Below are positions 21,967-30,187 of a stretch of DNA of 33,560 nucleotides, in pieces. The translations under genes were made by a program, and so were the position numbers. This DNA comes from Lacinutrix sp. (GTDB lineage Bacteria; Bacteroidota; Bacteroidia; Flavobacteriales; Flavobacteriaceae). The notes beneath the pieces were generated by a model. The model was not told where the DNA came from. It did no database searches and was given only the letters and a program-made list of their open reading frames with translations. The stretch's first letter is position 1. Every line of letters starts with the position of its first letter. Where the stretch lies: assembly GCF_023299985.1 (NCBI RefSeq), contig NZ_JALZVX010000143.1, forward strand, positions 1-33,560. The letters are read 5' to 3'.

Positions 21967-22773
21967 ATGATTTTAAATATAAAACGCATATTAATTTTAT
22001 CTATAATTTTAGTATCCTGCCAAACAGGAAAGCTTGAAGTTATTGCAAATATTGATAATAAACTAGATGAAGTATCTGCTAATGAAATTATACCTCAATC
22101 TAATTTAATTTGGGTTATTGAAGATTCTAATAACAAAAATAATATTTATGGACTAAATGCTAAAGGCAATATTTCAAAAAATATTGATGTTAGTAATGCA
22201 AAAAATATAGATTGGGAAGATCTTACAAAAGATAAAGAAGGTAATTTATATATTGGTGACTTTGGCAATAACTCTAGAAAACGAAAGATTTTTACTATTT
22301 ACAAAATTAATAAAATTGCAACTATTGCGTCAAGCACTAAGGCAGACATAATTAATTTTACATTACCTAAAAACGTACCTTCAGAAGACTTTGAAGCCTT
22401 CTTTCTATGGGACGGTTTATTTTATATTTTTAGCAAAAATGATAAAAAAACAAAAGTTATTACTGTACCAAATAGCATTGGTAATCATGAAGCTTCTTTC
22501 TATGCTGAATATAAGCTTGAAGGCAAAAACACTCCAATTACTGCTGCAGATATAAGTGCAGATGGTAAGCAAATTGCTTTATTAAACCACGATAAAGTAT
22601 GGCTTATTAGTGATTTTAAAAAACCTAATTTCTTTAAAGGCAACGTTACTGCACTTCCTTTTATGCATAAATCTCAAAAAGAAGGCTTATGTTTTAAAGA
22701 TTCTAAAACTATTTATATTTCTGATGAAAGAAAAAAACATGATGGAAAAATATATAGCTTTAATTTAGATTAA
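21967..22773 (+). CDS. Putative lipoprotein with beta-propeller-like repeats
   Basis: 268 residues. Residues 8-19 form a hydrophobic leader ending LVSCQT, a lipobox with Cys near residue 18. The body has repeated beta-strand patterns such as NIDWEDLTKDKEGNLYIGDFGNN and AADISADGKQIALLNHDKVW, which suggest a beta-propeller of the SdiA-regulated/NHL type. I cannot assign a function. It starts 63 bp from the divergent glycerophosphodiesterase gene, and its stop is 7 bp from that of the convergent large metallophosphoesterase gene. Confidence 0.7.
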   Translation: MILNIKRILILSIILVSCQTGKLEVIANIDNKLDEVSANEIIPQSNLIWVIEDSNNKNNIYGLNAKGNISKNIDVSNAKNIDWEDLTKDKEGNLYIGDFGNNSRKRKIFTIYKINKIATIASSTKADIINFTLPKNVPSEDFEAFFLWDGLFYIFSKNDKKTKVITVPNSIGNHEASFYAEYKLEGKNTPITAADISADGKQIALLNHDKVWLISDFKKPNFFKGNVTALPFMHKSQKEGLCFKDSKTIYISDERKKHDGKIYSFNLD

Positions 22774-22780
22774 AGGCATT

Positions 22781-25700
22781 TTAAAACGCTACTTCAAACC
22801 CGAAAGAAAACCTTAAACCTTCATTACTATTAAAGAAGTTAAAAGTACCTTGAATTGATTCTGCGGCAGACACCCAAAAACCACCTCCATAATCGTTATG
22901 CCATTTATTGGAAGATTCTCCTTTTAACCATACTCTACCAACATCTCCACCTGCAAAAACACCTATTTGCAAAGGTAATGTTGCTGTTTTAAAAGAGTTA
23001 AAACTATAACGAACATCTGCACTACCTACTAAGGAATTCTTTCCTGTAAAGCGTTGATTTCTAAACCCTCTTAATCCATTTATTGCGCCAATATTTGCAG
23101 CTTGATAGAATACTAAATCGTCTCCAAACCTTGCTTGTCCTCGTAAGTCTGTTTTTAAAACTAATTTTCTATTGGTTGATAAAGCATTATAAAAACCTAA
23201 ATTATAGTTTAAATAGCCATAAGTATTTTTAGTGTTTTCTGGCTCTGTTTTAATTCCTGTATTTAAATTAAGCGTCATGCCTCGAGTTGGTGTAATTTTA
23301 TTATCGAAACTAGCATAATTAAAATCTGCTTCAGTTGCTAAGAAAAAACGTCTGTTATAAAATTCGTTATTAAAAGAAGATGGTGAAAATGTTTCTATAA
23401 AACGATCTGTAGTTTCTGCTATTTCTATTCCTTCAGCTATAAATTTAAATCCATAATCACTACCAAAATGACCGCGTTTTAAAACACCTACACTTGCTTT
23501 GTATATACTTGTTTTAACTCTATTAAAATCTAAATCTAACTCATCATTATTTACAGTTTCGTTTCCAAATCCAAAAAAGTTATTAGAAAAATTCTCGCCT
23601 GTTAATTGGCCTCCAACATGTAAATTCCAATCTTTAAATAAATTTGCAAACTTACCATCGTACTCTATACTAAAACCGTCTGTTCCAAAAAAATAGCCTC
23701 CTTTAAAACGATGTTGTTGCGAGTATGGGTTACGCTGAAAACCTTTTGTAGTTTTAACTAAAGAAACGCCTAATGCAAAACCATCGTCTGGATTGTAAGC
23801 TAAACTTGGTGTTATAATTCCTGTTCTTACTATGTTTTTATTAAAGTCGAATAAATTATTATTATAATTATCTATAAAATTAATTTTTGCACCATTATTT
23901 TCTTGAATTGTGTTTGGCTTAGATTCATGGTCGTAAACACGAACTCTCTTTCCGTTTTTTATAATGTAGGTATCGTTATTTTGACCTCCAACTATTCTTG
24001 TGAAAATTAAATTATTTGCTTTGCCTGTAACTTCAAAAATATCATCATCGTCCAAACCATAAATCCAGAGTTCTTTAGTAATGTCCTTATTAAAATTTCT
24101 ATCTATTAATACTTCGCCTTTTTTACCATCTATAATTCTAGATATTTTTACATTGGTCTGGTTATCTCCAATACGATTGATTTCGAAATAATCGTCTTTA
24201 TCTGTTCCTGTTATAATTACTAATTGGTTTAAATAGTTATAATAACGCTCTGCAATGTCAAGCATATTGGACTTTCTAGCCTTTAGCAAATCTTTAATTT
24301 CGGCAAGAGATTTATCGTTAACTTCTTTAGGTACTTTAGAAAATGCCGTGGTTATAACTTGATCTGTAATGTTATCCATTAAAAATTTAGCCTGCTTTAA
24401 CCATACTGCTCTATCTGATTTTTGAATTAAAACTTTATCCAGTTTTATGCCTGCACTATTCATCCATTCAATATCCTTAAGTTCTGCATCGTAAACTTGA
24501 AGCTGTTTTGTTGCGCCAGACAAAACTTTCATTACATCTAGTAAAGCTCCATCAAAATTTGAAAACACTTGGTCTCTATCTCTAGGAATTGGTTTAAATA
24601 ACTTGTCGCCATTTTCTTGATTAAATTGTGCCCAACGCCATTGGTCTTGATGCCTATCCCAATCTCCAATAAGCATATCGAAAAGTCTTGCTCTTATGTA
24701 CGCGTTTTCGTCTATTTTATATTTTTCATCTTTTCTAATTTTTGTAATAATATCGTGTGTACTTTCAATATCATCTGCATATCCAAAGTTTTTTTCTTCG
24801 CTATAATTTTCTTCAGGACGTTCTTCAATCATATACAATTCATCTCCATAATCTGTATTATAATCACCCAAATATTTGTGCTTAGGAATGTAAAATAACT
24901 TTGGGTTTGTATGATAAAGATTGGCTGCATTAGACAAATCTGGAACCACAAAAAACGCATAAGGATGTGCAGCAGTGTAAAAATCTAATACTACGTCTTC
25001 AACTTTTGTTTTATCAAAGTCGTTTTCGACATATGTTTCTTTAAACAATACTGTTTGTAAATATTGCGTAGCACTTTTTCTAAGCGCTCTCATATTTAAT
25101 TGTCTGCCGTCTTTGGTTGCTAATCTAAGTGAACGCGTTTGATGTCCTCCACCTGCTCTTACGATTTCTAATCCTCCATATAACGTATCTAAAGTTGCTA
25201 CTTTTGCTGTTATTTTTCTACTATATAATTTTCGATACCTATTTCCTAATAACGTTTTATATATTCCTGTTTTCTCTGTTTCTTCTTTAGTGTAAATTGA
25301 AGTTTGAACCGTTTTTGGAAACGAATCCTGTAAAACATCTGTATTAAAAATAGCTCTACTTTTTGGTAAAACTTCTTTGGTAAACATTAATTTAGGTTCT
25401 CCATTTTCAGACACATAAATACTTACCCAAGTACTACCATCTTTAAAAATTGTTAATTCGGCAAAGCCTTGTTGCCCAACAGAAAATAGTCCGTTTTTAC
25501 TTAATGCAGCTGCAGACTTTTTAGCACCAGAACCAGAAACAATTTGCTTAATACCATTGTTTTCTATATATTGAATAGAGTGTTCGTGTCCAGACGCAAA
25601 TATAATATTATCGTATTCTAGAGACATGGTTTCAATACGGTTCATCAACTCATTATACCTCTCGTTGTATCTATCTTGAATAGAAACACCTCCTTGCGTC

Positions 25701-26485
25701 CTTACTTGAGCTAGTAAAGAGGATAATATTGGTAATGGAATTTTTTTTTGTGTTGGGTAAAGATGTTTACTCGCATCGTAAAAACCACCATGCGTACCAT
25801 TAGTGTACATTGGATGATGCATAGCAAATATAACACGTTTGTTTTGAGCTTTTTTTAGTTCACCTTCTAATGCTTCGAAAAAACGCTTACGTGTTTTAAT
25901 TTCACAGTTATCGTTAATTGTTGGATTTTCATTCCAGTTTTCTAAATACCATTGACTATCTATTACAATAAGTTGTACTTCCGCACTTACATCTATACTT
26001 TCTAGTGGACAACCATTTTCTGGTTTAAATGTATTTTCCCCTAGAGCATATTCTATATATTTTTCTTCTCGCTTAACACCTTCTACACCATCTGCATACC
26101 AATCGTGATTACCAGGAATCATAACTGTTTTACCCTTAAAACCAGCTACCGATTTTATTTGAGCATCTAGCGCGTTTTCTGCAGTCGCTCTACCGTCACT
26201 TCCTTTTTTAACCAAACCATCTGGATACACATTATCACCTAAAAATACAGTATAATCTTTTTTAGTGTCTTTATTTTTTATGTGCTTATTAAATGCCGTT
26301 AAACCTAAAGACATACCTCCAATTGGAGATTTCCCTGCATCACCAATTAGGTAAAATGTTCTATCAATTTCCTTATTAGGTAGCTGCTTTATAGTTTTCT
26401 CTTTGCTTCTATATTGCGCAGTAAATGTTGCACAGCCTGATAGCGTTAATAATAAAACAGTTAGAATTATGTTATTTTTAATCAT
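22781..26485 (-). CDS. Outer-membrane fusion: PAP-like phosphatase, kinase-like region, beta-barrel
   Basis: 1234 residues. LSGC gives lipobox Cys18. Residues 44-310 hold the purple-acid-phosphatase motif set: GDAG (D49), GDNVY (D84, Y87), GNHD (N126), MHH (H223) and GHEH (H300, H302). Residues about 435-660 resemble a protein-kinase-like fold of the FAM20/HipA kind: a Gly-rich strand pair (GGGHQTRSLRL, then NMRALRK), a hinge-like ELYMIEERPEE, the catalytic-loop-like GDWDRHQDQW (D610) and RDRDQVF (D636/D638). Residues about 870-1234 form a BamA/D15-type barrel with INGLRGFRNQRFTG and a terminal Phe. The phosphatase and barrel calls are firm; the kinase resemblance is inference. It could be a surface phosphoesterase with self-export or anchoring. 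Confidence 0.8.
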   Translation of the reverse strand: MIKNNIILTVLLLTLSGCATFTAQYRSKEKTIKQLPNKEIDRTFYLIGDAGKSPIGGMSLGLTAFNKHIKNKDTKKDYTVFLGDNVYPDGLVKKGSDGRATAENALDAQIKSVAGFKGKTVMIPGNHDWYADGVEGVKREEKYIEYALGENTFKPENGCPLESIDVSAEVQLIVIDSQWYLENWNENPTINDNCEIKTRKRFFEALEGELKKAQNKRVIFAMHHPMYTNGTHGGFYDASKHLYPTQKKIPLPILSSLLAQVRTQGGVSIQDRYNERYNELMNRIETMSLEYDNIIFASGHEHSIQYIENNGIKQIVSGSGAKKSAAALSKNGLFSVGQQGFAELTIFKDGSTWVSIYVSENGEPKLMFTKEVLPKSRAIFNTDVLQDSFPKTVQTSIYTKEETEKTGIYKTLLGNRYRKLYSRKITAKVATLDTLYGGLEIVRAGGGHQTRSLRLATKDGRQLNMRALRKSATQYLQTVLFKETYVENDFDKTKVEDVVLDFYTAAHPYAFFVVPDLSNAANLYHTNPKLFYIPKHKYLGDYNTDYGDELYMIEERPEENYSEEKNFGYADDIESTHDIITKIRKDEKYKIDENAYIRARLFDMLIGDWDRHQDQWRWAQFNQENGDKLFKPIPRDRDQVFSNFDGALLDVMKVLSGATKQLQVYDAELKDIEWMNSAGIKLDKVLIQKSDRAVWLKQAKFLMDNITDQVITTAFSKVPKEVNDKSLAEIKDLLKARKSNMLDIAERYYNYLNQLVIITGTDKDDYFEINRIGDNQTNVKISRIIDGKKGEVLIDRNFNKDITKELWIYGLDDDDIFEVTGKANNLIFTRIVGGQNNDTYIIKNGKRVRVYDHESKPNTIQENNGAKINFIDNYNNNLFDFNKNIVRTGIITPSLAYNPDDGFALGVSLVKTTKGFQRNPYSQQHRFKGGYFFGTDGFSIEYDGKFANLFKDWNLHVGGQLTGENFSNNFFGFGNETVNNDELDLDFNRVKTSIYKASVGVLKRGHFGSDYGFKFIAEGIEIAETTDRFIETFSPSSFNNEFYNRRFFLATEADFNYASFDNKITPTRGMTLNLNTGIKTEPENTKNTYGYLNYNLGFYNALSTNRKLVLKTDLRGQARFGDDLVFYQAANIGAINGLRGFRNQRFTGKNSLVGSADVRYSFNSFKTATLPLQIGVFAGGDVGRVWLKGESSNKWHNDYGGGFWVSAAESIQGTFNFFNSNEGLRFSFGFEVAF

Positions 26486-26543: not shown

Positions 26544-27806
26544 ATGTCTTCAATTATTGAAAAAGCTGAAAATTTTGTTTTAAAGTTATTTAAAGAGGAG
26601 CTACCAAATACTTTTATTTATCACAATTTTACGCATACTAAACGTGTGTTTAAAAGTACGAAAGAAATTATTGAAAACACTGAAATAAACGTTAATGAGA
26701 AAGAAATATTACTGTTAGCAGCTTTATTTCACGATACAGGCTACACTAAAACCAGAGAAGGGCATGAAGAAGAAAGTGTGAAAATTGCAACACAATTTTT
26801 AACCAATGAAAAAGTTAATCCAAATATAATTGAAGGTGTAAACAAATGCATCATGGCTACTAAGTTTAGAGAAATTCCAAATTCTAAATTAGGCGAAATT
26901 ATTTGTGATGCAGATACTTCTCATTTTGCTAAGAAATATTTTAATGAAGCTAGCGAGTTTTTAAGAAAAGAATATGAAATTCAAGGTATTAGAACATATA
27001 CAGCTAAAGAATGGAGAGTTGAAAATATTGAAGTTTTAGGCCAAAAACATCGTTATTACACACCTTATGCTATTAAACATTGGCAACTAGAAAAAGATAG
27101 TAATTTAGCCAAATTGATTAAAAAGAAAAAAAAGAGCAAAGCTAAAGATAATAAAGAAAAACTAAAAGCTAAATATAAAGAGCAGTATAAAAACGAGAGT
27201 CCAGAACGTGCCATTCAGTCTTTTTACAGAACAGCTTTAAAAAACCATATTAAATTAAGTGATATTGCAGATACCAAAGCCAATATTTTATTATCTGTAA
27301 ATGCTATTATTATTTCTGTAGTTTTAGCCAACTTAATTTCTAAATTAGACACTAACCCTTATTTAATATGGCCAACAGTAGTATTCACGTTATTTAGTGT
27401 TGTTTCTATGGTAATGTCTATAATTGCCACACGTCCAAATGTTACAAGTGGACAGTTTACTAAAGAAGATGTAATAAACAAAAAGGTAAACCTAACTTTT
27501 TTTGGTAATTTTCATAAAATGGAACTTAAAGAATTTGAATGGGCCATTAAAGAAATGATTAGTGACAAAGATTACATCTATAACACGTTAACTAAAGATT
27601 TGTACTTTCTAGGAAAAGTTCTTGAACGCAAGTATAAATTATTAAGAATTACTTATACCGTTTTTATGATAGGCATTATAGTATCTTTAATATCTTTTGG
27701 AATTGCAGTTAAAAATAATCCAAGAGCTAACTTTGAAGATGTACTAGAAACTAATGTTCAAGTACAGCCTACTTCTATTCTTAATAAAGAAGTATATAAA
27801 AGTTAA
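26544..27806 (+). CDS. HD-domain protein fused to Pycsar-type membrane domain (PycTM)
   Basis: 420 residues. The N-terminal HD phosphohydrolase has His31 (FTHTKRV), His63-Asp64 (LFHDTGY) and Asp122/Asp124 (CDADTSHF), the full metal-binding set. A Lys-rich linker (190-215) leads to the PycTM/DUF5706-like domain (about 225-390). This has KLSDIADTKANILLSVNAI, two membrane helices near 252-296, the ATRPNVTSGQFTKEDV block, FFGNFHKM and a third helix near 370-388. PycTM domains are the effectors of Pycsar anti-phage systems, activated by cCMP or cUMP. No uridylate/cytidylate cyclase is in the window, so this may be a housekeeping or orphan relative. It overlaps the convergent GAF gene by 4 bp. Confidence 0.85.
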   Translation: MSSIIEKAENFVLKLFKEELPNTFIYHNFTHTKRVFKSTKEIIENTEINVNEKEILLLAALFHDTGYTKTREGHEEESVKIATQFLTNEKVNPNIIEGVNKCIMATKFREIPNSKLGEIICDADTSHFAKKYFNEASEFLRKEYEIQGIRTYTAKEWRVENIEVLGQKHRYYTPYAIKHWQLEKDSNLAKLIKKKKKSKAKDNKEKLKAKYKEQYKNESPERAIQSFYRTALKNHIKLSDIADTKANILLSVNAIIISVVLANLISKLDTNPYLIWPTVVFTLFSVVSMVMSIIATRPNVTSGQFTKEDVINKKVNLTFFGNFHKMELKEFEWAIKEMISDKDYIYNTLTKDLYFLGKVLERKYKLLRITYTVFMIGIIVSLISFGIAVKNNPRANFEDVLETNVQVQPTSILNKEVYKS

Positions 27807-30187
27807 GCTTTAATCTCATTCATTAAATCATTGTAAGTATAAAACTGTTTATTGTCCTTTTTAGATTTGCTGTATAAAATCTCAACACGCAATGCCTTTA
27901 AACCTGTAACACCTTGAAGATCTTCAAGTTCTAAAACCTCAACATTATCTCCTAAAACATGTTTAAACTGTAAAAAGTTTATGTATTCTAAGTATTCTAT
28001 TTCATCTGCTTTTTGAGAATATACAATAGTTAATTTACCTTCCACAGTAGCGCGCTCATTTGTGCCTTTTATATTGGCTTTGTCCACACGTTTTTTTACC
28101 ACCTCGTATCTAGCGTTATAAGTACCATCTACATCAAAATGTTTCTCGTCCATTCTAAAACGTATAGATAACGGTTGATTAAAAACTAAAATCATAGAAG
28201 CAACATCAAGAGAAACAGGATATTTACTTCGCTTGTTATAATAGCTATTTTCCATATCGCACATAACCTGCAATTGCCATAATCTTAAATTATACAAATA
28301 CATGTTATTAAACGAATTCTCTTTAGTAATATCTTCTCCAATATACATGTTGTGCTCTACACCATCGGTTTTAAAACGCTCGAAAAAGTGTGGATACATT
28401 TTCTGTGCTTCAATTTGCTTTTTATCAATTAAAGAAGACATGTTTTTATTGATGAGCATAATGGTGTCATCATATTTTTTTCTATAGTTATAGACCACTC
28501 CTAAGTCTTTATCTATTTTAGAAAAATAATCCTTTATATCTTGCTTTAAAATAGAGTTGCTTTTTAATTTAAATTTTAAAACAGAATCTAGTTCATTTTT
28601 AAAAAATGCTGTGATTTTTTGCTCACTATCTACTTTAAAATCTGTATTTATTTCTTCGGAAAACTTTTCAATTTGAAATTTTAATTTTTCGTAAACCGGA
28701 AGTTTTTCATTACCAAAACCTTTGTCTATAATTTTCTTTACTAATAGTAACTGAAGTAATAAATCTTTCTGTGTTGCTTGATTTCTAGCATTAGACGAGC
28801 CTTTTACATCCATTTGCCCAAATAAAGGATAAACATCTCTAAATATAATTTTTCCAAAAGTAGCATTATCACCACGCTCACTACTATCTAGCATAAACTG
28901 TCTTGCTGCTTTCTCGAATTTCCAATGTACACTTGGATGTATAGCAGTACATTCGCTTTGAATGATTGCTTGAATTAAGTTTGCTTCATGAATTTTCGAA
29001 CGTTTAACTGCCTCGTAAATAAAAGGCATAACATCTACTAACTTGTTAGCAACAATACTATTTAAAGCGTGCTTTTTGGTAGAGACTAATTCTAGTATAC
29101 CCAATAAGTTTTCTCCATCTGCAATAGGTGCTAAAATTGCGCTTTTGTATCCTTGATTATAAAGCACTTTTACCTGTGGCACTTTACCTTTAGACTTATT
29201 ATAATACAGTTCTAAATCTGAATTTGAATAAAACACCTTATCATCAAATATTGTTTTGTAAGAATTATGACAAAAAACAGCTTCACAGGCTAAACTGGAG
29301 TTTAAATCTAAAAGAAGACTTTGAATTCCTGCATCTGGAACCTGCATTAACAATTGTTCTCTTTCATTAAAAACTGAAAAACCAACGTCTAAATCTTGCA
29401 TCCCAAGAAAAGAACGAAAAATTTCTTTAAAGCTGGACATAAAACGTTTGTCTCTTTGCTTATCACTTACTATTAAACTAGATTTAATATTAGAAATCGA
29501 TTGGTCTGCTGTGATATCCACAATATTAGAAATCACAAATCCTTTAGCTATATAACTATTAGGTGGAAATTTCTCTTTCCAAAGTGCTATATCTTCAAAA
29601 TTATCTAGTAATTTTTTATAGTCTTCCTCAGTAATTTCTGGTGTATTATCTTTCTTTATAACCTCTATAAAATCTGCATTGTATAAAATCTTGTAATAGC
29701 GGATAATACCATTAGTATCTGGTATTTGGTAATATAATGGTCTGCTAAAATTGGCAGAATAACCGTAATATGCTTTTAATATAACATTACATGCAATAAT
29801 GTATTTATCATTATCAGGCATGTTTTCAATTTCTATTTCGTAATCGTCTCCAGCAGCTTCAAGAATAGTTTTAAAACGTTGAGAAGAATTAAAAATCATA
29901 TTATGAAAAGGAACAGTTGCTGTTTTAATTTCATTTTTAGTTAACACTTGACTAAAAGAATCTTGAAGAATAATATTAATCTCTTTTTCGTACGTTTTCA
30001 AATAAGACAGATCACTAAAACCTTCTCTAAGTAAAGGACTATTTTCTTGAGTTTTAAGAACTCTACGTGCTTTAGCAGCAAGGAATTCATCCTCGTTTTT
30101 TTCTAACTCTTCATAGTAGTTCAATAACTTATTGAAACCTATTTTAAGGTCGAAGGGCAGTGTTATGTTATTGTTTATATCTTGCAT
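27803..30187 (-). CDS. Large GAF-domain protein of unknown function
   Basis: 794 residues, no signal peptide and no transmembrane helix, so cytoplasmic. A GAF-like domain spans about 245-395 (FLGMQDLDVGFSVF, then KVLYNQGYKSAILAPI and GILELVSTKKHAL). The N-terminal 240 residues and the C-terminal 400, which are mostly helical and charged, match nothing that I recognise. No kinase, GGDEF or HTH output is seen, so how a GAF ligand signal would be passed on is unclear. The gene runs from near the tRNA-Leu to a 4-bp overlap with the convergent HD-PycTM gene. Confidence 0.75.
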   Translation of the reverse strand: MQDINNNITLPFDLKIGFNKLLNYYEELEKNEDEFLAAKARRVLKTQENSPLLREGFSDLSYLKTYEKEINIILQDSFSQVLTKNEIKTATVPFHNMIFNSSQRFKTILEAAGDDYEIEIENMPDNDKYIIACNVILKAYYGYSANFSRPLYYQIPDTNGIIRYYKILYNADFIEVIKKDNTPEITEEDYKKLLDNFEDIALWKEKFPPNSYIAKGFVISNIVDITADQSISNIKSSLIVSDKQRDKRFMSSFKEIFRSFLGMQDLDVGFSVFNEREQLLMQVPDAGIQSLLLDLNSSLACEAVFCHNSYKTIFDDKVFYSNSDLELYYNKSKGKVPQVKVLYNQGYKSAILAPIADGENLLGILELVSTKKHALNSIVANKLVDVMPFIYEAVKRSKIHEANLIQAIIQSECTAIHPSVHWKFEKAARQFMLDSSERGDNATFGKIIFRDVYPLFGQMDVKGSSNARNQATQKDLLLQLLLVKKIIDKGFGNEKLPVYEKLKFQIEKFSEEINTDFKVDSEQKITAFFKNELDSVLKFKLKSNSILKQDIKDYFSKIDKDLGVVYNYRKKYDDTIMLINKNMSSLIDKKQIEAQKMYPHFFERFKTDGVEHNMYIGEDITKENSFNNMYLYNLRLWQLQVMCDMENSYYNKRSKYPVSLDVASMILVFNQPLSIRFRMDEKHFDVDGTYNARYEVVKKRVDKANIKGTNERATVEGKLTIVYSQKADEIEYLEYINFLQFKHVLGDNVEVLELEDLQGVTGLKALRVEILYSKSKKDNKQFYTYNDLMNEIKA

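Follow-up and report, generated by a model that had tools for sequence, protein, structure and literature searches.

Introduction

The studied case of an Omp85 protein serving as an enzyme scaffold is PlpD, a patatin-Omp85 protein of P. aeruginosa in which an enzyme domain lies N-terminal to a 16-stranded Omp85 barrel; according to its description, this domain, at one time taken to be exported, stays in the periplasm, and the authors place the protein in outer-membrane lipid homeostasis (PMC11116518). Atypical kinases include CotH (PF08757), for which D228 and D251 of the B. subtilis protein are reported as catalytic, the D228Q and D251A mutants being inactive (PMC7821199), as well as the HipA/HipT/CtkA proteins (PF07804; PDB 3akj), with a DRHxxN-type catalytic loop, and phosphatidylinositol 4-kinase type II (PI4K-II). 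In this study, we analysed an open reading frame (ORF) of Lacinutrix sp. (Bacteroidota) that combines features of these systems with those of purple acid phosphatase (PAP; PDB 2bq8 and 1ute). It lies at 22781-26485 on the minus strand of contig NZ_JALZVX010000143.1 (assembly GCF_023299985.1), whose analysed stretch of 33,560 nucleotides is referred to below as the window. The ORF starts with ATG and encodes 1234 amino acids (aa), and its product is predicted to be a lipoprotein with three modules: a PAP domain, a middle kinase-like domain, here called K1, and an Omp85 barrel. A literature search, sparse for subscription journals, found no description of the PAP-kinase-barrel architecture.

The resemblance to each described system is partial. 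In common with PlpD, an enzymatic part precedes a 16-stranded barrel, but the enzymes are different, no POTRA domain was recognised and the protein is a lipoprotein. K1 shares with CotH its fold and the register of the DWD and DxD motifs, whereas it falls below the Pfam cut-off, is exported and is joined to an Omp85 barrel and a PAP domain. The catalytic loop is in register with that of HipA, HipT and CtkA, although it has Gln instead of Asn at position +5, no PF07804 match, and a signal peptide with a membrane anchor. Unlike the known purple acid phosphatases, the phosphatase module is joined to a kinase-like domain and a barrel and is lipid anchored. The locus would add new enzyme types to the Omp85 proteins that serve as enzyme scaffolds.

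The protein and its relatives

In a Pfam scan of the 1234-aa protein at E <= 1, Metallophos was the sole match, and a phmmer search of the same protein against the PDB gave no match at E <= 1. The best 80 of 152 stretches encoding relatives were kept as close loci; nearly all of these 80 align over the full length, with best-segment identities of 49-84%, and their titles mention members of the Flavobacteriaceae, among them Lacinutrix, Bizionia, Olleya and Winogradskyella. The Lacinutrix sp. assembly is incomplete (78% complete, 230 contigs). An assembly chimera was considered and rejected, because the best 80 of the 152 stretches belong to genomes other than this one, including many isolates with names. 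A paralogue with 43% identity is encoded in the same genome (L002, G000:C208:282-3575). As a separate observation, the orthologue of Lacinutrix neustonica (L032, 5977-9708) is broken into two frames by a frameshift or a sequencing error.

Fold and catalytic residues of the kinase-like domain

K1 comprises residues 400-762 (24200..25288, minus strand) and was delimited with structural modelling, profile comparisons and residue conservation. An AlphaFold2 (AF2) model of these residues, built from an alignment (A1) of the window sequence and 81 rows from the close loci, had a mean pLDDT of 79.4 and a pTM of 0.82. This model was compared by VIA-align with the 1000 chains ranked highest by Foldseek. 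The top match was PI4K-II beta (Z 14.6, 262 residues, rmsd 4.7), with an identity of 8-9% and a common fold that does not show a lipid substrate, tied with CotH (Z 14.3, 255 residues, rmsd 4.2); lower scores were obtained for CtkA (12.4), HipA (11.2), PI4K-III beta (10.9) and actin-fragmin kinase (10.4), and the FAM20-type Golgi casein kinase 4kqa, with Z 9.6, was well under CotH and PI4K-II. The 50 matches listed are kinases, where MDT, HipS-HipT and one compound-titled entry are taken by us to be so from recall and not from their titles. A sequence-only reading of this DNA had proposed a FAM20/HipA-type kinase at residues 435-660, to be discarded if the predicted fold had no kinase lobes. 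The kinase assignment stood, as structure prediction and fold search gave a kinase fold, but the domain proved wider (about 400-760), with PI4K-II and CotH as nearest folds and CtkA and HipA after them.

Profile comparisons pointed in the same direction at low scores. A profile of 65 diverse K1 members (alignment A2, 65 of 67 listed rows, leaving out L001, identical to the window, and L137) ranked CtkA first in the PDB, with an E-value of 0.051 and the alignment centred on GxxDRH; a third alignment, A3, held the window and 66 of 81 full-length rows. Profiles of CotH (28 sequences) and HipA_C (30 sequences) were built from genomes of the phylum and compared with K1 by hhalign. The HMM-HMM comparison that the sequence-only reading had suggested placed the catalytic motifs in register: GDWD/IPRDRDQ with GNWD/IPYDYDNTFG of CotH (P 2.4e-4) and DRHxxQ with DDHxxN of HipA_C (P 0.0059), the hhalign probabilities being low (43.8 and 6.2, respectively). 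Eight unrelated families used as controls gave P >= 0.13. A PAP profile was discarded as a negative control, because the PAP alignment overhangs into K1 (probability 100). In the Pfam searches, CotH PF08757 matched three of the 65 members below cut-off (best E 0.012) and not the window's own domain, HipA_C PF07804 did not match the window protein at E <= 1, and PF07804 was absent among the 25 of 36 Pfam families shown for the 65 members. NCBIfam matches to the glycogen debranching protein GlgX in six of the 65 members (best E 9.4e-4) were taken as chance. No Pfam or NCBIfam model covers K1 at cut-off, and we regard it as an undescribed kinase-like family.

The residue set of K1 consists of K470, E554, D610, Q or N615, D636 and D638, where the roles of K470 and E554 were assigned by position and not by superposition. 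Of 147 rows, 132 keep every residue of the set, 79 of them among the 81 close rows and 53 among the 66 diverse ones. Neither here nor in the 122-row count given below is the window counted twice, as it was (as Q_win and L001) in one earlier conservation count. Among the 82 A1 sequences, window included, D610 and D638 are invariant and D636 is at least 90% conserved; the lack of conservation at these positions that would have told against the sequence-only reading was not seen. The motifs named by the sequence-only reading are likewise present and conserved in relatives: G445-G447, EERPEE at 554-559, GDWDRHQDQW and RDRDQ. In the model, K1 is a domain of the protein-kinase-like (PKL) fold, with two lobes and with the N-lobe Lys, the catalytic-loop Asp and the metal-binding Asp conserved. 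It is predicted to be an atypical kinase, of the same type as CotH, HipA, CtkA and PI4K-II, and to have intact catalytic residues.

Phosphatase domain, linker and barrel

The PAP-like domain spans residues 35-377 (25355..26383, minus strand). PF00149 (Metallophos) matches residues 63-238 (E 6.8e-9), and structure comparison of the model with human PAP gave Z 27.0 over 268 residues, with an rmsd of 3.0 and 19% identity (19-20% for 2bq8 and 1ute). The ligand residues are D49, D84, Y87, N126, H223, H300 and H302, and all seven are kept in 114 of 122 aligned rows. The eight incomplete rows include two fragments (L069 and L032), a second copy in L056 that lacks D49 alone, and L024, which lacks two ligands; at least three are gone in L002, L151, L147 and L148, whose N-termini read as signal peptidase I type with no lipobox. 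In its modelled fold and its seven metal ligands, including the GDxxY tyrosine, the domain belongs to the PAP class, and phosphatase activity is predicted.

Residues 763-885 (23831..24199, minus strand) form a beta-rich linker with three GxDxD-like turns, as judged from sequence and from the secondary structure of the full model, in which short strands with such turns occupy about residues 755-870. No POTRA domain was found by Pfam and none was recognised in the secondary structure of the full model, the linker stretch not having been folded or searched alone. An Omp85 'noNterm' subfamily, with no N-terminal extension, is described (PMC4104836).

The barrel comprises residues 886-1234 (22784..23830, minus strand). 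In the model of residues 35-1234 (pLDDT 80.4, pTM 0.75), 16 strands lie between 886 and 1232, and the barrel matches TamA with Z 25.1 and a chain of the BAM complex with Z 24.8. An Omp85 family of NCBIfam also matches residues 1051-1234, below its threshold (E 1.5e-15), and the sequence has LRGF at 1138 and a C-terminal F. We take an LRGF/VRGF loop and a C-terminal aromatic residue to be marks of the Omp85 family; with these and its 16 modelled strands, the barrel is of Omp85 type. The phosphatase metal set with its PAP tyrosine, the D15/BamA barrel and the union of three modules in one polypeptide, all proposed by the sequence-only reading, are borne out by these fold and sequence results together with those for K1.

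Distribution and gene linkage

Of 392 sampled genomes of the phylum, 150 (~38%) were found by a profile search to encode the K1 domain, and it occurs in 76 of 179 genera. In a tree of 66 sequences, 36 have the PAP-kinase-barrel architecture, 23 are kinase-barrel and seven are kinase only; these architectures were assigned by frame length and phmmer matches, the tree came from a quick search, and four rows have long branches. A split with an SH-aLRT support of 99 separates a kinase-barrel side (22 rows) from a mainly PAP-kinase-barrel side (44 rows), and six architecture changes occur in the whole tree. In one genome (L116/L163), separate genes for the kinase, Metallophos and Omp85 follow each other on a single strand, which links the three functions independently of fusion. 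Five plasmid records also match (Hymenobacter 3, Persicobacter 1 and Parabacteroides 1), and in the four with an annotated gene beneath the match it is called a hypothetical protein. In two genomes of one genus, kinase-only genes stand side by side, three in L157 (4129-9148) and two in L158 (7436-10775), two of these genes being divergent.

Anchoring, orientation and interpretation

The window protein begins with a signal peptide and a lipobox, LSGC (Cys18; 26432..26485, minus strand), as read from its sequence and the N-termini of relatives. A Cys follows a hydrophobic N-terminal stretch in 109 of 117 PAP-bearing rows; this laxer test took the place of an earlier lipobox pattern, which picked up 97 of 160 rows, fragments and barrel-only frames among them, but failed on lipoboxes that were visible. 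In each of the 30 kinase rows with no PAP, the N-terminus has a hydrophobic stretch resembling a signal peptide or an anchor (doubtful in L139), and in the stand-alone kinase relatives L112-L114, which have no barrel, this stretch reads as a membrane anchor. Since hydrophobic or lipobox N-termini occur in both PAP-bearing and PAP-less kinase rows, the kinase-like domain is very probably extracytoplasmic.

Both ends of an Omp85 barrel lie in the periplasm. The sequence-only reading had placed the enzymes at the cell surface, and a rival explanation of the locus is that the barrel exports the PAP-kinase passenger so that both domains act there, for example in phosphate scavenging or on extracellular substrates. 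Such a role would agree with reports that many lipoproteins in this phylum are exposed on the cell surface (PMC5080379) and that Omp85 proteins are able to translocate polypeptides (PMC11116518). The former source gives the lipoprotein export signal as K-(D/E)2 or Q-A-(D/E)2, but among the 109 homologues that have a lipobox-like Cys, 85 show no acidic residue at +2 to +6, 24 show one, and two or more were never seen; the passenger of PlpD, moreover, stays periplasmic, and the anchored stand-alone relatives have no barrel. Because of the missing export signal and the PlpD precedent, we favour a periplasm-facing tether: the PAP and kinase-like domains are more likely to lie on the periplasmic side than at the cell surface, where the earlier claim had set them, and surface action of the pair seems unlikely to us.

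From the computed folds, residues, gene linkage and export, we infer an orientation, activities, a phosphate donor and a substrate as follows. The barrel and the lipid anchor would keep the PAP and the atypical kinase at the outer membrane, facing the periplasm. There the kinase would add phosphate to an envelope substrate, be it a protein or a lipid of the inner leaflet, and the PAP would take it off again or clear a phospho-product, so that phosphorylation and dephosphorylation would be opposed. ATP would need to reach the periplasm, or another donor would be used, and the small beta-propeller protein encoded next door may assist. This enzyme pair, acting in the periplasm on an envelope substrate, is a reading in which our confidence is evenly balanced. 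It is supported by the kinase and PAP folds with their kept residues, the register of the catalytic motifs, the exported N-termini, the fusion in 36 of the 66 tree rows and the three adjacent genes of L116/L163; the recurrent SdiA-like neighbour and the precedent of PlpD are also counted in its favour. A bolder version is more speculative and, in our judgement, improbable: a self-contained outer-membrane phosphate switch, widespread in the phylum, in which the kinase would phosphorylate an inner-leaflet lipid or an envelope protein in a compartment believed to hold no ATP, the PAP of the same chain would reset it, and the barrel would both anchor the enzymes and present the substrate, having evolved at least twice around Omp85 (with K1 and with a second family, K2, described below).

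Several observations weigh against the enzyme pair. Foldseek returned 484 PDB matches at E <= 10 but none at E <= 0.001 (best 1.7e-3), albeit with kinase folds on top, and neither the window protein nor any of the 65 K1 members scores above cut-off with a Pfam or NCBIfam kinase model. Fold and motif register are therefore the basis of the kinase assignment. The +5 position is Gln in K1 and Asn in HipA and CtkA, and part of the residue set is gone in 13 of the 66 diverse rows. The paralogue L002 and L151 have lost PAP ligands but keep the kinase set and many relatives have no PAP, which indicates that the two activities are not always paired. Finally, the authors of the PlpD report call the periplasm an environment lacking ATP (PMC11116518). 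This last point, together with the loss of catalytic residues in L117, L118, L131, L135, L136, L137, L139-L141, L147 and L148, would fit K1 being a regulatory pseudokinase that binds a nucleotide or ligand, or a domain for another transfer such as AMPylation, leaving PAP as the sole classical enzyme; we hold this possible but doubtful, as the retention of the whole set by 79 of the 81 close rows and 53 of the 66 diverse ones is what would be expected of catalysis rather than of scaffolding. The weak Foldseek values and subthreshold profile matches could also mean that the middle region is no kinase and that motif spacing and fold match coincide by chance. Kinases throughout the 50 listed VIA-align matches, up to Z 14.6 over 262 residues, and CotH and HipA profiles in register where eight unrelated families gave no comparable P, make such a coincidence very improbable. 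The enzyme pair that we prefer would point to addition and removal of phosphate in a cell envelope believed to contain no ATP, and its kinase-like family, extracytoplasmic as judged from the N-termini, is present in about 38% of the sampled genomes. If active, it raises an extracytoplasmic phosphate donor and a reversibly phosphorylated outer-membrane target as testable questions.

A second kinase-like family

At L142 and L145, an Omp85 gene, a gene for a 561-568 aa lipoprotein (K2) and a PAP gene are adjacent. Six K2 genes were found in four genomes, each adjoining a barrel-matching gene; among them are those at L142 (1951-3657 and 10939-12636), L145 (2719-4404) and L171 (7568-9550), which adjoin Omp85 genes, and the PAP gene adjoins K2 in the first copy of L142 and in L145. 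A fifth genome of the 198 searched had only a weak 162-base match. The K2 sequence reads LIKFDG, NDTDRRDAN and DFG, with the DRR motif missing from two of the six (L172 and L173), and on these motifs K2 is a candidate kinase-like family. No Pfam match exceeded cut-off, HipA_C reaching E 0.25 in one of three members, and a K2 profile matched only designed armadillo repeats in the PDB (E 0.31 to 1.8). Homology of K2 to K1 was also considered: the hhalign probability of K2 against K1 was 0.7 with three K2 sequences and 1.0 with six. The P value was 0.0019 for K2 with HipA but also as low as 0.0055 for K2 with the PAP profile, and the link to HipA is therefore weak.

Neighbouring genes

Convergent with the ORF lies a gene for an SdiA-regulated-like beta-propeller lipoprotein (21967..22773, plus strand), identified by profile comparison only: the protein encoded in the window matches nothing in Pfam at E <= 0.01, but its family matched two SdiA-regulated proteins encoded beside kinase-barrel genes (L120 and L126, Pfam PF06977) with an hhalign probability of 95.95 (E 5e-9). 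The family is present in 51 of the 80 close loci. Counting the place of the window itself, 17 of the 31 loci L001-L031 have this family or its SdiA-like relatives, as do three of the 23 kinase-barrel loci L119-L141, which have short flanks. Such a gene recurs beside kinase genes in both deep clades. Of 36 PF06977 places listed in 148 genomes and compared by hand, eight lie 84-570 bases from a kinase-domain gene match, seven of them on the same strand, and a ninth lies 3.8 kb away. As to the substrate, one neighbour each was tested at the stand-alone kinases L153, L154, L155 and L156, and these (SET domain, peptidase M20, PNPOx and PcrB) looked unrelated.

Two further genes of the window lie upstream of the ORF. 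The divergent neighbour at 26544-27806 (plus strand) encodes an HD domain joined to a PycTM (Pycsar effector) membrane domain, and its family accompanies the gene in 60 of the 80 close loci. The gene at 27803-30187 (minus strand) encodes a 794-aa protein with no Pfam or NCBIfam match at E <= 0.01, and members of its family accompany the gene in 43 of the 80 close loci.

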